Counted from the first letter of the stretch, positions 43,411 to 61,071 are shown. The stretch: 64,000 nt of DNA from a candidate division FCPU426 bacterium (GCA_027366525.1 DAHXKG010000003.1:124001-188000), one strand, 5' to 3'. Made by a program: numbers and translations. Notes: generated by a model from the sequence alone, not told the origin.

Positions 43411-44967
43411 GTGATTAAATCATTATTAAAAAAATATGGGTGGATTTTAAATCCCGGCGAATGGCTTCTTTTGGCTTATTTTTTTATTTTTGAAATGATG
43501 TCATTAGCTGCCGTCTTTGAGATGTTACCCCAAGCAGGAACGACGTTTTTATGGTCAACCGGATATTTTTTAATATGGATAATGTGGCTAGTATGGATGA
43601 TCCATAAAAATCCCAATCCAACTCGAACATGGGGTGTGATTCGAAATGCCGGATTATGGATGGGCATTGCGCTGTGTTATAACCTAATGAAATATTTAGT
43701 ACCCACAATCCACCCAGGAAAAGATGATCAAGATTTATTTAATATTGAGCGCGCTGTTTGGGGACGCGGGCCCGCTTTATGGGGCCATGAATTATCTCAG
43801 CACATTAATTTAACGGATTTTTTTTGTTTTTTTTATTTAAGTCTATTTATTTGGCTGATTGGATTAGTCATTTATCATTTATGGATTCGAAGAGCCCTTT
43901 ATCAGCGATTTATGTTGGGCTTAATATTGGTATATGGTGGTGGGTTTCTTGGGTATTTGATTTGTCCAGCGGTTGGACCTCGATTTGCTTTTGCCCAACA
44001 ATGGGCATGGCTCCAAGGTGGATGGCTGTTTACGTGGACTAATTGGATAGTGCAATGGTTCGGATCAAAAATTGATGTTTTTCCAAGTTTACATGGGGCG
44101 ATTTCAAGCTATTTACTTTTTTGGCAATCCCAAAATGATCGCCGGGGACTTCTTTGGGGTATTCCACTCACCTTGGGTATCTGGTGTTCAACCCTTTATT
44201 TGGGCTATCACTATCTTCCGGATTTGGCCAGTGGAGTTTGTTTAGCCATGATTAGCCTGTGGCTGGTTCCATTTTTGGAATACATTATCGATGCCTATCA
44301 ACCGAAAACTCGAGCATCCCATTACTGGTTAATTCGAGTGACTAAAAATCAAGGAGCTTATTTTGGAAAATTAATGAGTCGGCTTAGTCAGATTATTGAG
44401 TTAGGTGGAGAAACGGCACCAGGGTTTGTTTTTTTGGGTGTTTCCAAATCTCAAAGTGAAAGTGAAGTCAAAAAGAGTTTAAAAAATTTAGGAGGACCCT
44501 TTTGGATTCGACGATCTGATTTTTTAACGGCCGGCCAACAGAGTTTGCGATCGCTTAAACCATATTCCGAAGCACAAGTACTTCGAGTTTTATTTGAGAG
44601 CCGATTAAGTTTAAAACGGAATTTTTATATTGTTCAAAAAGCGTTGAAGGTGTCAGCGGTTGGATTATGCCGAACTTTTCCTCAAAAAGGATTAAAATTA
44701 TCCGATGTGGAAATTCGAATCACTTTGTTATCTAATGGGAATATGCAAACGATCCGCGTCCCTTCCAATAATAGATTTTTAAGTACCTACTTCAATTGGC
44801 CTTGGGCTTTTTTTCAATCGCAGTTGGAAACTGTGGGGTTTGAATTATTTGACTTGGTTCAATTGACTCGAAAATTGTCTAATCAATGGAATATTTTTAC
44901 AGAAGTAGAATGGTGCTTTTCGCAGGGAAGGTTTTTTGTTTTAGATGGGCGAGGGATTCGACAATAA
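43411..44967 (+). CDS. PAP2 phosphatase fused to a truncated PEP/pyruvate-binding domain
   Basis: 518 residues from GTG 43411 after AAAAGGTGA. Residues 1-300 are membrane-embedded with the PAP2/Aur1 motifs: CPAVGPRF (185-192), FPSLHGA (224-230, His 228) and GYHYLPD (265-271, His and Asp), predicted to act on a lipid phosphate. Residues ~305-518 look like the ATP-grasp domain that starts PEP synthase: a GKLMSRLSQIIELGGETAPGFVF start, PFWIRRSD in place of V-R-S-S-A-x-x-E-D, AGQQ, FYIVQKALKVSAVGLCRTFPQ in place of V-Q-x-M-V-x-A-D-x-x-G-V-x-F-T, and EVEWCFSQGRFFVLDGRGI like the closing D-I-E-W...L-Q-x-R-P-I. Several catalytic residues are lost. It heads a coupled four-gene set. Confidence 0.7.
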   Translation: MIKSLLKKYGWILNPGEWLLLAYFFIFEMMSLAAVFEMLPQAGTTFLWSTGYFLIWIMWLVWMIHKNPNPTRTWGVIRNAGLWMGIALCYNLMKYLVPTIHPGKDDQDLFNIERAVWGRGPALWGHELSQHINLTDFFCFFYLSLFIWLIGLVIYHLWIRRALYQRFMLGLILVYGGGFLGYLICPAVGPRFAFAQQWAWLQGGWLFTWTNWIVQWFGSKIDVFPSLHGAISSYLLFWQSQNDRRGLLWGIPLTLGIWCSTLYLGYHYLPDLASGVCLAMISLWLVPFLEYIIDAYQPKTRASHYWLIRVTKNQGAYFGKLMSRLSQIIELGGETAPGFVFLGVSKSQSESEVKKSLKNLGGPFWIRRSDFLTAGQQSLRSLKPYSEAQVLRVLFESRLSLKRNFYIVQKALKVSAVGLCRTFPQKGLKLSDVEIRITLLSNGNMQTIRVPSNNRFLSTYFNWPWAFFQSQLETVGFELFDLVQLTRKLSNQWNIFTEVEWCFSQGRFFVLDGRGIRQ

Positions 44968-44998
44968 CAGATTGTGGATGCAATCCAGGAGGGCAATC

Positions 44999-45394
44999 GT
45001 GATCAAAAAGCTTTTTATTTTTATAGTGATACTTGGATTCTTGGTTTTTGTGGGAACCAATCAATGGTGTTTAACTCGATTAGGCATTTCACAGGGTTCT
45101 CATACTAGATCCATTCATCATGCATGGATGAAGGTGCATCAAACGTTGAATATGCTGAATCATAAATTTAAAAAAGCTTCACCTCAAATCGCCCGATCCT
45201 CCTTGAAGGTGCTTCAAAAAATAAAAACGCCGGAACATCAATGGAAAAACAAGATGGAGCAAACCCGATCCCGGTTTTTAAAAACATGGAACAAGATTAA
45301 GTGGAATATCCATCGGCTGATTCATGAATTCCGTTTAGGGATCACACAGCGAATAAAAAATTTCGAAAACAGTTTTCGAGCTTTAATTAAATGA
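44999..45394 (+). CDS. Basic, membrane-anchored hypothetical protein
   Basis: 131 residues from GTG 44999 after AGGAGGG; a frame from 44945 is open but overlaps the previous gene. One N-terminal helix (KKLFIFIVILGFLVFVGTNQW), then a very basic helical region rich in Lys, Arg, Trp and His. It ends as ATGA on the next gene. No family recognised. Confidence 0.6.
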   Translation: MIKKLFIFIVILGFLVFVGTNQWCLTRLGISQGSHTRSIHHAWMKVHQTLNMLNHKFKKASPQIARSSLKVLQKIKTPEHQWKNKMEQTRSRFLKTWNKIKWNIHRLIHEFRLGITQRIKNFENSFRALIK

Positions 45395-46095
45395 TCCAAC
45401 GCCCAATAGTATGGTTGGTAGCACTCGTGCTGCTACTTATGGGCATTTTCACCATAATGAGTTGTGTTTCCATGAATCCCAATGCGTATTTCGTTCCCAT
45501 TAATCAACAAATATTTAATAGTAATGCGTTAGGCATGACTCAGTTATATCCTTGTCCGACTCGAAATTATCCATATCAGTTTATCGAGGCAACCGCCATT
45601 CCCAATCTTCAAACGATTGATTATGGGCTATACAGTGGATTAGTAACTAATCAACAGGAATTTAATTCAGATTGGAATGAAATTATTCCGGATCAAAGCC
45701 CGGATCCGACGTTGCCTTCCTTACTGCCGATGATTGGGATTGTTCCGCAAGCCCCGGAAACCACTACGTTAGAACCTGTAATTAATTGGAATACTACCGA
45801 AGCGTTTTTCATTAATTTAGGCTTGGTGAGCAGTTCTTGTGAAAAAATTGTATTTGTGGGTATGACTACCGATTGTTTGAATATCTATATTACGCTTTCG
45901 AAATTTACGTATCTCAGTAACTGCTATCCCATCAATGAAGTTCCATTTTTTATATTTATTTTTCCCAAGACCAATCTTCCGATCATTGTTAAATGGACTA
46001 ATGATCCCACGGGGGACGGTATATCTAATCAAACGAAAATTCAAGAGGGACTCAATCCTTTGGAACCCTATATCACTCCAAGTCCCTCGCCATGA
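45391..46095 (+). CDS. Lipoprotein with a TSP3-like calcium loop
   Basis: 234 residues. Signal 1-25 with lipobox IMSC (Cys at about 25). The body is Pro/Asn/Thr-rich with four Cys in the middle region (SSSCEKI, TTDCLNI, SNCYPIN). The C-terminal NDPTGDGISNQTKIQEGLNP matches the thrombospondin-3/dockerin-like D-x-D-x-D-G-x-x pattern only loosely (DPTGDGISN). The start overlaps the previous gene by ATGA and the stop overlaps the next. Likely exported with its neighbours. Confidence 0.6.
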   Translation: MIQRPIVWLVALVLLLMGIFTIMSCVSMNPNAYFVPINQQIFNSNALGMTQLYPCPTRNYPYQFIEATAIPNLQTIDYGLYSGLVTNQQEFNSDWNEIIPDQSPDPTLPSLLPMIGIVPQAPETTTLEPVINWNTTEAFFINLGLVSSSCEKIVFVGMTTDCLNIYITLSKFTYLSNCYPINEVPFFIFIFPKTNLPIIVKWTNDPTGDGISNQTKIQEGLNPLEPYITPSPSP

Positions 46096-46541
46096 AAAAA
46101 TTATTTTTGATTGCATTAATGATATTAGGCGTCGAATTGTTGAGTTCGCGCGTACAGGCGGTTCCGGTGGTTTCATTTCCCATTGCGTTTGCCAATTATT
46201 ATGTTTGGGCATATACGGAAGCCTATGAAGATCGATCTTTTGTTTATGCCGATACTACCGCGGGTATTGATGCGATGGGTTGGATTATTTTAGCGACGAC
46301 GGATCAGTATTCAGGCCTTTTTTTAATTAACATGGCCGCTATTTCGAAAACGGTTTATCCGGTTGTCCAACTTTTGGGAAAACCGATCTCCGCCGTTAAG
46401 CAACGAGCATGGATTGATATCGCCACTAATCTTACAACACTTTTATTGTTGAAATGGATGGGACATCCTGCGTTACAGGTTGAAAGTTTTCTGCCAGAAG
46501 ATCGTTGGGTTCCGGGCATTCAAGTCGCTTATTCCTTCTGA
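46092..46541 (+). CDS. Secreted hypothetical protein
   Basis: 149 residues. Signal peptide 1-22 (MKKLFLIALMILGVELLSSRVQA). The rest is aromatic and hydrophobic (FANYYVWAYTEAYEDRSFVY, WIILATTDQYSGLFLIN) with no Cys. Its start overlaps the previous stop. The 3' end overlaps the convergent cysH gene by 13 bases. Function unknown; its context suggests one envelope assembly with the PAP2 fusion protein. Confidence 0.6.
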   Translation: MKKLFLIALMILGVELLSSRVQAVPVVSFPIAFANYYVWAYTEAYEDRSFVYADTTAGIDAMGWIILATTDQYSGLFLINMAAISKTVYPVVQLLGKPISAVKQRAWIDIATNLTTLLLLKWMGHPALQVESFLPEDRWVPGIQVAYSF

Positions 46542-58742: not shown

Positions 58743-58787
58743 AAAAAGCCGAAGAACGAAGATCAAGTTCTTTGGCTTTTTATTTTT
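58743..58787 (+). terminator. Rho-independent terminator of the peroxide operon
   Basis: AAAAAGCCGAAGAAC (58743-58757) and GTTCTTTGGCTTTTT (58767-58781) pair with one G-T pair, followed by ATTTTT. The tail of the CrtC-like gene begins at 58786. Confidence 0.9.
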
Positions 58788-59910
58788 AATTGATCGGAGG
58801 CCGAGCGGTCGAAACATCCGATTCATCCGGGGGCAATATGGAGTTAGAGGAATTAGGTTTGATTAAAATGGATGAGGCTTTAAGAAACGGGTAAAAAATT
58901 GGTTTTTTAAATCGAGTCAAAGCTAAATGGGTTGAAAAACCCATAGATGCAAAAGCAGTGTTCTGGATTTCTTCGCGGCAAATCGAGTATAACGGATGAT
59001 CAACAACGAGTTGAGAACGATAAATTGAAAATAATGATAAATAAGTGGGCGACTCAAGATGAACTTGTATTTTTTTAGGATAGGCAATGCCGAAAAAACT
59101 ATGTGTAGTTTTAAGGACCGATAAAGATTTAGGTTTGATCCACTGAGGGTCATGGGAGAAATTCCAAGTAATAAATTGTCCGATAAGAATATCCAAATCT
59201 TTGGGTTTGAAAAAAATATAATTCATACCCCCGGTTTTTGAAATATGAAATCCACGGTCCAATTGATCGGCCAATTGGAACAGGGGAATAGACCCATAGT
59301 GGTGATCATGATGACCATGGCCCAGGAATGGAAGGGACTTTATGCAGGCTCCAGAATCTAAGTTTACCCATTCGCATATACCATCGACTTGGCAAAATGG
59401 AGCTGTAGCAATCCATTGGTGAGTGAGGTATTCTGAAAAAGAAAAAGAAGCTTTAAACGGAACCAAGGTGGTGAAGATTAATTTCAAACGAAAAAGTTGA
59501 CCGGATTTTCGAGAAGGAGCTTGAGCGGTTAATGTGTAAGTCAAAGGGGCACCCTTGGATTCGACAAAACGATTATAACCCATCCGCATGGCAGTTTGAT
59601 CGTCAGAGGCTACAGAAAGTGAAAGGGGGAATTCCTGGAGTGAATCACAAATAATTTTCCGGTTTTGAACGACTAAAATTTTTAAGCCATTAAATTCAGA
59701 AGATTGAAAAGGAATTTGAGTTGAGGGTAGTTGTTTAAAATAACGATGCAGGGCCTCGAGATAATAACCCGAAAAGATAGTGCCAATGTGGAACTGGACG
59801 CAAATGAAGATATCTTGCGTCGGGTCATAACACTCGAAATTCCACCACTGGTAAGCGCCAGGTGAATTGACGATAGGTCGAGGATTGTCTGTATTTGAAG
59901 AAAGGTTCAT
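58786..59910 (-). CDS. Carotenoid 1,2-hydratase-like protein (CrtC family)
   Basis: 374 residues. The opening SPGAYQWWNFECYDPTQDIFICVQFHIGTIFSGYY resembles the CrtC/hydroxyneurosporene-synthase family, and the middle APFCQVDGICEW, with LPFLGHGHHDHHYG, corresponds to the family's G-x-G-Y-H-D-H-N-W-G motif. Two lipocalin-like beta domains are expected. Substrate may be a carotenoid or another polyene/terpenoid. Its ATG at 59910 abuts the GTG of the glycosyltransferase on the other strand, and no Shine-Dalgarno is seen. Confidence 0.75.
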   Translation of the reverse strand: MNLSSNTDNPRPIVNSPGAYQWWNFECYDPTQDIFICVQFHIGTIFSGYYLEALHRYFKQLPSTQIPFQSSEFNGLKILVVQNRKIICDSLQEFPLSLSVASDDQTAMRMGYNRFVESKGAPLTYTLTAQAPSRKSGQLFRLKLIFTTLVPFKASFSFSEYLTHQWIATAPFCQVDGICEWVNLDSGACIKSLPFLGHGHHDHHYGSIPLFQLADQLDRGFHISKTGGMNYIFFKPKDLDILIGQFITWNFSHDPQWIKPKSLSVLKTTHSFFGIAYPKKIQVHLESPTYLSLFSIYRSQLVVDHPLYSICREEIQNTAFASMGFSTHLALTRFKKPIFYPFLKASSILIKPNSSNSILPPDESDVSTARPPIN

Positions 59911-61071
59911 GTGATTATTATCTGTTCAATTATTTGGGTAGCCGTATCCATCCAAATGTTATGTTGTACTTGGATCAATGTTAAAACTATAACAAAATTA
60001 AATCCAAAAATTAACAAAGATTTGAATTCATGGCCGATGGTATCTGTTTGTATTCCTGCCCGGAATGAAGAGCGAAATATCGAACAATGCCTGAAAAGTA
60101 TTTTATTGCAGGATTATCCCCAATTCGAAGTTTTGGTATTAAATGACCAGTCAATTGATCGTACACGGCACATTGTTCAATCCTATCAGCATACGCATCA
60201 ACAGGTGAAACTCCTGGATGGAAAGCCGTTACCGCCCGAATGGAAAGGGAAACCCTGGGCTTGCGAACAACTTTCACAAGCTGCTCAAGGGGAATATTTA
60301 TGGTTTGTGGATGCCGATACATGGTATGAAAAATCAGCGCTTTCAAATTCCATGATTGAAATGGATCAAACCCAAGCCGATCTTTTGACCGTCATCAACA
60401 AGCAAATCACGAAAACATGGGCAGAAATATTAGTTGTTCCGGTAATGATTTTTTCCATTATTGGATTTTTCCCGATAACGGATTCTGGGTTTTTGAAGAA
60501 AAAAACAAAGGGGTGGGGTGGTGCGAATGGTCAGTTCTTGCTTTTCAAGCGCAGCTCCTACCATGCGATTAAAGGCCATCAAGCAGTCAAAAACGAGATT
60601 GTCGAGGATATTCAAATAGGACAAAAAATGATTCAAAACGGATTCAAAACGATCACGCGGAATGCCTCTCAGTGGGCTTATTGCCGAATGTATAATTCTT
60701 TTGGAGAAGTTTGGGATGGATTTTCAAAAAACATGTTTCCCGCCTTCAATTTTTCGTTATGGAGAGCGGCTGGAGCCTTGGGCCTTTTTTTCTTGATAAC
60801 AATTTTACCCTATGGCTTGGTTTTTTTTATGCATGGATGGATTGAAGTGGTTATTATTGGATTAATCGGCGTAGAGGAAGTAGTGCGGTGGACTCAGGCT
60901 GTTCTATATCAACTGCCGAAAAGCTCAGTTGTATTGCATCCCCTGGGATGTTTGATTTATTTTTTAATTGGATTGAATTCAATCAGATGGTACAAATGGT
61001 TAAAAAAGGGTTTTTGGAAAGGTCGGGAAATCACCTCCTCAAGACCAGAAAACCATAAAAAGATTTGTTGA
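59911..61071 (+). CDS. GT2 glycosyltransferase, CrtQ/HpnB-like
   Basis: 386 residues from GTG 59911. One N-terminal membrane helix, then VSVCIPARNEERNIEQCLKSILLQDYPQFEVLVLNDQSIDRT, the GT2 start; LWFVDADTWYEK gives the DxD metal site; GGANGQFLLFKRSSY and the EDIQIGQKM acid follow. Three more helices close the protein. The layout matches CrtQ and related inner-membrane transferases that act on lipids such as carotenoid acids. The CrtC-like neighbour suggests glycosylation of a hydrated terpenoid. Confidence 0.85.
   Translation: MIIICSIIWVAVSIQMLCCTWINVKTITKLNPKINKDLNSWPMVSVCIPARNEERNIEQCLKSILLQDYPQFEVLVLNDQSIDRTRHIVQSYQHTHQQVKLLDGKPLPPEWKGKPWACEQLSQAAQGEYLWFVDADTWYEKSALSNSMIEMDQTQADLLTVINKQITKTWAEILVVPVMIFSIIGFFPITDSGFLKKKTKGWGGANGQFLLFKRSSYHAIKGHQAVKNEIVEDIQIGQKMIQNGFKTITRNASQWAYCRMYNSFGEVWDGFSKNMFPAFNFSLWRAAGALGLFFLITILPYGLVFFMHGWIEVVIIGLIGVEEVVRWTQAVLYQLPKSSVVLHPLGCLIYFLIGLNSIRWYKWLKKGFWKGREITSSRPENHKKIC

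Follow-up and report, generated by a model that had tools for sequence, protein, structure and literature searches.

The locus examined here raises the question of what a domain resembling the ATP-binding part of PEP synthase might do at the C-terminus of a PAP2 membrane protein. It lies in a 64,000-nucleotide stretch of DNA (the window) from a candidate division FCPU426 bacterium (GCA_027366525.1 DAHXKG010000003.1:124001-188000), whose genome of 2.02 Mb is 97.5% complete and shares its order with the eight other genomes compared. The original prediction was of a PAP2 lipid phosphatase fused to a decayed PEP/pyruvate-binding domain and accompanied by three exported partners. The gene (43411-44967, plus strand) is an ORF with a GTG start that encodes 518 amino acids, arranged as N-terminal helices, a PAP2_3 domain, a linker and a C-terminal domain modeled as an ATP-grasp, and it is followed on the same strand by three ORFs (44945-45394, 45391-46095 and 46092-46541).

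The PAP2_3 half and its relatives

The membrane half of the protein matches PF14378 (PAP2_3) over residues 108-285 (43732-44265, plus strand), with an E-value of 2.5e-17 and 63.7 bits against a gathering score of 27. Its FPSLH motif (H228) and its HYxPD motif (H267 and D271; H267-YLPD271 in the window copy) are invariant in all eight orthologues, confirming the predicted PAP2 membrane domain with intact motifs. This membrane domain comprises eight helices. In all eight sequences positive charge is found at the N-terminus, in the linker after TM8 and in loops 2, 4 and 6, and the two long loops (3 and 5) are acidic or almost neutral. The positive-inside pattern predicts, for every one of the eight, a PAP2 site on the periplasmic side and a cytosolic location for both termini and the ATP-grasp domain.

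Structural comparison of the PAP2 half, where Z values for helical membrane models are moderately informative at most, identified Aur1 as the nearest solved fold (9ivc, Z 11.8; 9vj4, Z 11.7 over 226 residues), with SMSr at Z 9.8, PgpB at Z about 8 and PgpB and the lipid phosphate phosphatases together spanning Z about 7-9. On the basis of these models, the PAP2 half bears a closer resemblance to lipid phosphotransferases such as Aur1 and SMSr than to simple phosphatases, which corrects the earlier designation "lipid phosphatase".

A more specific assignment, to an enzyme resembling inositol phosphorylceramide (IPC) synthase that would produce phosphoinositol sphingolipids in the manner of BT_1522 of Bacteroides, would agree with Aur1 being the nearest fold and with the NCBIfam searches, in which PI-dihydroceramide synthase was the leading family match for five fusion members (E 1e-7 to 1.5e-4). 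The scores against that equivalog model (NF052609) were 21-32 bits, however, against a cut-off of 480, and inositol-phosphate synthase (PF07994) was found in none of the nine genomes of the order, although inositol could still be taken up. The absence of myo-inositol-phosphate synthase from all nine genomes lowered the standing of inositol sphingolipid synthesis as a candidate, and we consider this assignment very unlikely. A role as the sole undecaprenyl-PP phosphatase was also lowered, since BacA is encoded in seven of the nine genomes, including that of the window, and other PAP2 proteins in all nine. A second, broken PAP2 copy, with in-frame stops and no ATP-grasp domain, was observed at G001:C11:31039-31874 (L126); it is up to 42% identical to the PAP2 domain of the window.

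Fold and conserved residues of the C-terminal domain

Pfam finds nothing in residues 303-518 (44317-44964, plus strand), either in the window copy or in the seven orthologues, and PF01326 (PPDK_N) fails in all eight, whereas NCBIfam models of PEP synthase and RPH match the C-terminal domain of up to seven of the eight members. A profile of the domain matched solved RPH with an E-value of 0.002 over its last 41 positions. When this profile was compared by hhalign with one built from 33 clean PEPS/RPH ATP-grasp domains, the score was 41.7, a value reached by none of 200 column shuffles (null 14.5 ± 2.5, maximum 24.5). These results bear out the prediction of a fused PEP-synthase-type ATP-grasp domain. 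This score comes mainly from the last ~45 residues; the remainder scores 18.2, which was equalled by 13 of the 200 shuffles, but is nonetheless aligned colinearly. Global profile alignment placed the N-terminal half of the domain in the wrong position.

The full-length AlphaFold2 model had a pLDDT of 56 and an unusable C-terminal half, so the C-terminal domain was folded separately, from seven orthologues and without templates, yielding a model with pLDDT 75 and pTM 0.75. The top Foldseek match of this model was RPH (5fbs, E 8.7e-7), and the VIA matches were led by PPDK (1dik, Z 12.6 over 181 residues at 3.8 Å), followed by RPH (5fbs, 12.3) and PEPS (2ols, 11.8), these matches spanning 179-196 of the 216 residues. 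Across the VIA comparison, 808 of 1000 chains had Z of at least 5, with PPDK highest. A structural match to ATP-grasp/PEP-binding folds had been set in advance as a check on the original prediction, and the Z values of 11.8-12.6 provide it. D-Ala ligases tie at Z 11.8 with the top VIA matches (rows within Z 1), which means that the fold is sure and that the PEPS/PPDK/RPH subtype rests on the closing sequence block. The confinement of the sequence signal mainly to the last 45 residues might suggest that the likeness is due to chance and that the domain has an unrelated fold; since a template-free model is itself an ATP-grasp with PPDK at the top and no shuffle reaches the profile score, we regard this as highly improbable. 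As modeled, the C-terminal domain is of ATP-grasp fold.

All 33 reference PEPS/RPH domains have the GGK Lys, the VRSS Arg, the DxEW Glu and both the Gln and the Arg of QxRP, and 32 of them have the DxEW Asp. The counterparts in the fusions are K320, R367, E500, D512 and R514, each invariant in all eight members. K320 would suit the part of Lys22 in its location and invariance, but its register is uncertain, as the alignments put it within 1 to 6 residues of the Lys22 position and not exactly upon it. Two positions are substituted: E498, also invariant in all eight, replaces the Asp of DxEW, and D512 replaces the Gln of QxRP (Asp in 8/8 fusions versus Gln in 33/33 PEPS/RPH domains). The closing block (E498-V-E500-W501 ... 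L511-D512-G-R514; 44902-44952, plus strand) aligns without gaps, and in this profile alignment E498, E500, D512 and R514 correspond to D321, E323, Q335 and R337 of PPDK, with E500 corresponding to E297 of RPH; R367 is the equivalent of R117 of RPH. Counting back from the end of the VIA match, which falls at PPDK 341 and RPH 315 on model residue 216, likewise places R514 at PPDK R337 and E500 at PPDK E323 and RPH E297. In RPH, the phosphates are held in place by Lys22, Arg117 and Thr136, and Glu297 is a Mg ligand; replacement of Lys22 by Ala abolishes activity and that of Glu297 does not (PMC4844700). At the level of sequence, every catalytic position that can be assigned carries either the same residue (R, E, R) or a conservative replacement (D to E, Q to D).

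With respect to the landmarks originally listed, the Arg of the R-S motif and the Glu of the closing E-W are invariant in the eight members, and the A-G-Q-Q motif is confined to the window copy, its relatives having SGSKKST or similar. The name "PEP/pyruvate-binding" is a historical Pfam label, the N-terminal domain of PEPS, PPDK and RPH being the ATP-grasp, ATP-binding part (PMC4844700).

In all eight members the ORF ends at the ATP-grasp domain, and no phosphohistidine swivel, PEP-utilizer or acceptor domain was found, nor any Pfam match to one. This observation bears on the reading in which the C-terminal domain is an active kinase or ligase that acts on a cytosolic or inner-leaflet acceptor, with PAP2 processing the product on the opposite face. 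Such an enzyme would account for the retention of acidic residues that bind Mg and of arginines that bind phosphate. Many ATP-grasp enzymes consist of a single domain and have no swivel domain, and an Asp or Asn close to the position of D512 coordinates the metal in other enzymes of this fold. However, PEPS, PPDK and RPH work through the swivelling His domain that the fusion lacks, the lid is shortened, and no conserved substrate-making genes are recognizable around the locus, so that we judge an active kinase or ligase unlikely. Elsewhere in the phylum, PPDK_N matches at G023:C49:78692-79651 and G029:C25:11509-12108 lie within open frames of 8763 and 4812 codons, which are giant proteins with a PEPS-type ATP-grasp.

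Distribution, selection and neighboring genes

A scan of genome contigs with the single sequence retrieved no fusion orthologue, and an alignment was needed; the alignment-based scan found six orthologous loci, four labeled candidate division FCPU426, one "bacterium" and one "Proteobacteria". The last of these (L038, JAJPJW010000101.1) matches genome G005, which belongs to the order of the window, and is probably a mislabeled MAG. Full-length fusion genes are present in seven other genomes, 46-49% identical to that of the window, and a ninth genome contains the C-terminal end of the fusion, cut by the start of its contig. Loss of the fusion in close relatives had been named as a result that would speak against the original prediction; the fusion is instead kept, intact in eight genomes, and the C-terminal domain occurs in all nine genomes of the order. 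It was found in none of 36 other genomes of the phylum (E 0.001), and a wider scan of 384 genomes gave only weak matches outside the order, many of which, including the strongest, are the closing block of PEPS/RPH-like frames of 800-900 amino acids. The pairing of PAP2 and ATP-grasp domains is thus conserved across the order and, among the genomes searched, confined to it. Our literature search, which covered a minority of the subscription journals, yielded no report of PAP2 fused to an ATP-grasp or PPDK domain; found neither in this literature nor in the other genomes searched, the combination appears to be a new pairing of two known kinds of domain.

Among the seven other genomes, identity is 63-87% in the C-terminal domain and 66-82% in the PAP2 core. 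The dN/dS of the C-terminal domain was 0.098/0.84 in the L031-L032 pair (PAP2, 0.124/0.86) and 0.094/1.21 in the L026-L031 pair (PAP2, 0.146/0.89). Taken over the closest pairs, the ratio in the domain is ~0.08-0.12, matching the low level of the PAP2 half; saturation affects many of the remaining pairs. These estimates apply to the relatives; the window copy, which has diverged furthest, is alone in its family. By these comparisons the C-terminal domain, though shortened, is constrained, and purifying selection acts on it no less strongly than on the PAP2 half. The description "decayed" does not survive this result, nor the retention or conservative change of the placeable catalytic positions.

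The same evidence bears on whether the domain might be a pseudo-ATP-grasp that binds no nucleotide and serves as a scaffold or for protein interaction. Its loss of ~100 residues, the GLGE segment and the Gln metal ligand would fit such a role, as would the disappearance of the AGQ motif from most copies and the failure of Pfam PPDK_N in all eight. Yet R367, E500 and R514 occupy nucleotide and metal positions that a scaffold could dispense with and are invariant, and the domain is under purifying selection no weaker than that on the PAP2 half; we hold a non-binding scaffold to be rather unlikely.

Of the three partners proposed for the fusion, the constant one is the last, a secreted protein of 149 amino acids with a signal peptide (46092-46541, plus strand), which is present in all nine genomes and in each lies directly downstream of the fusion gene or of its lipoprotein. 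The lipoprotein (234 amino acids; 45391-46095, plus strand), with an invariant lipobox Cys25, stands beside the fusion in five of the nine genomes (that of the window and four others). The basic signal-anchored protein has no orthologue in the eight other genomes of the order and is confined to the genome of the window. A perfect AGGAGG at 44986-44991 precedes a GTG at 44999, which is probably the true start of this protein (44999-45394, plus strand), the listed start at 44945 probably being wrong; with this start the gene need not overlap the fusion gene. No family was found for any of the three proteins, and no solved relative for the lipoprotein or the secreted protein. The calcium-loop-like end noted earlier in the lipoprotein (DPTGDGISNQT...GLNP) is present in the window copy alone, most orthologues having Pro/Thr-rich tails with acidic closing residues.

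Several further observations concern the neighborhood. Genome G003 carries tandem lipoprotein paralogues beside the fusion (L029:374-1794) and two extra copies of the secreted-protein family (L125:2773-4919 and L124:7260-7712), one of them flanked by a LysM-DUF3108 protein and a PlsY-like acyltransferase and the other near PAPS reductase. PAPS reductase and, farther away, a G6PD gene cluster also lie near the fusion in several genomes, and we recognized no functional link between them and the fusion. Within the window, a 374-amino-acid protein without a Pfam match (58786-59910) is a divergent neighbor of a family-2 glycosyltransferase (59911-61071).

Proposed mechanism and comparison with known systems

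Taken together, the sequence and model evidence suggests that the C-terminal domain probably binds ATP and that, depending on Mg-ATP, it would control a lipid phosphotransferase facing the periplasm or supply it with phosphoryl groups. The fusion product would be an enzyme of the inner membrane that works on both of its faces. On the periplasmic side the PAP2_3 half, a relative of the Aur1/sphingomyelin-synthase type of phosphotransferase, would use His-His-Asp chemistry to cleave or transfer a phosphate bond in a lipid; we infer a lipid substrate for this half as part of the proposal. The cytoplasmic ATP-grasp would bind a Mg-nucleotide and couple the nucleotide state of the cell to the membrane enzyme, its open/closed movement gating the PAP2 half, and the secreted protein encoded downstream may act with the fusion enzyme at the envelope. 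The sequence would suit gating and catalysis alike, and we lean towards gating because there is no phosphohistidine domain to complete a PEPS-type reaction.

The reading we favor, that a cytosolic Mg-nucleotide-binding module controls the periplasm-facing lipid phosphotransferase, is a good possibility that stops just short of being probable. Invariance of R367, E500 and R514 in all eight members and the predicted position of the site in the cytosol, where ATP is, count for it, as do the modeled ATP-grasp fold with its PPDK, RPH and PEPS matches, the low dN/dS, the occurrence of the domain in all nine genomes and the likeness of the PAP2 half to Aur1. Against it count the ~100 missing residues, the missing GLGE, the change from Gln to Asp, the register of K320 and the weak signal in the N-terminal half. 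The broader proposal of a new transmembrane enzyme, in which a cytosolic PPDK-type ATP-grasp, as kinase or switch, drives or controls lipid phosphotransfer on the opposite face and, with its secreted partner, gives rise to an order-specific envelope lipid, is put forward tentatively, as a somewhat doubtful possibility.

The ATP-grasp of PEPS, PPDK and RPH (PF01326) shares with the domain of the fusion its fold, its order of elements and the invariant R of VRSS, E of DxEW and R of QxRP. It differs in having ~320 residues as opposed to ~210, i.e., ~100 more, and in possessing the GLGE segment; the domain of the fusion, in contrast to PF01326 domains, stands at the C-terminus of a membrane protein and falls below Pfam detection. 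It would represent a PPDK-type ATP-grasp retained without a phosphohistidine partner and invisible to current profile annotation, which would file the fusion gene as a plain "PAP2 phosphatase". PAP2_3-only paralogues in the same order (e.g., L127:4360-5313) belong to the same family and are ~25% identical, but lack the ATP-grasp domain and have different neighbors. PgpB and the lipid phosphate phosphatases (PAP2, PF01569) share the catalytic core of the PAP2 superfamily, with a weaker structural match and no appended cytosolic domain. Aur1 (IPC synthase) and the bacterial PI-dihydroceramide synthase BT_1522, of a PAP2_3-like family, have the FPSLH and HxxxD motifs in common with the fusion and include its nearest folds; these enzymes are not known to carry a cytosolic ATP-grasp. 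PAP2 enzymes are usually viewed as ATP-independent hydrolases or transferases acting outside the cytoplasm, and the proposed mechanism, if true, would directly connect nucleotides in the cytoplasm with the chemistry of lipid phosphates across the membrane.
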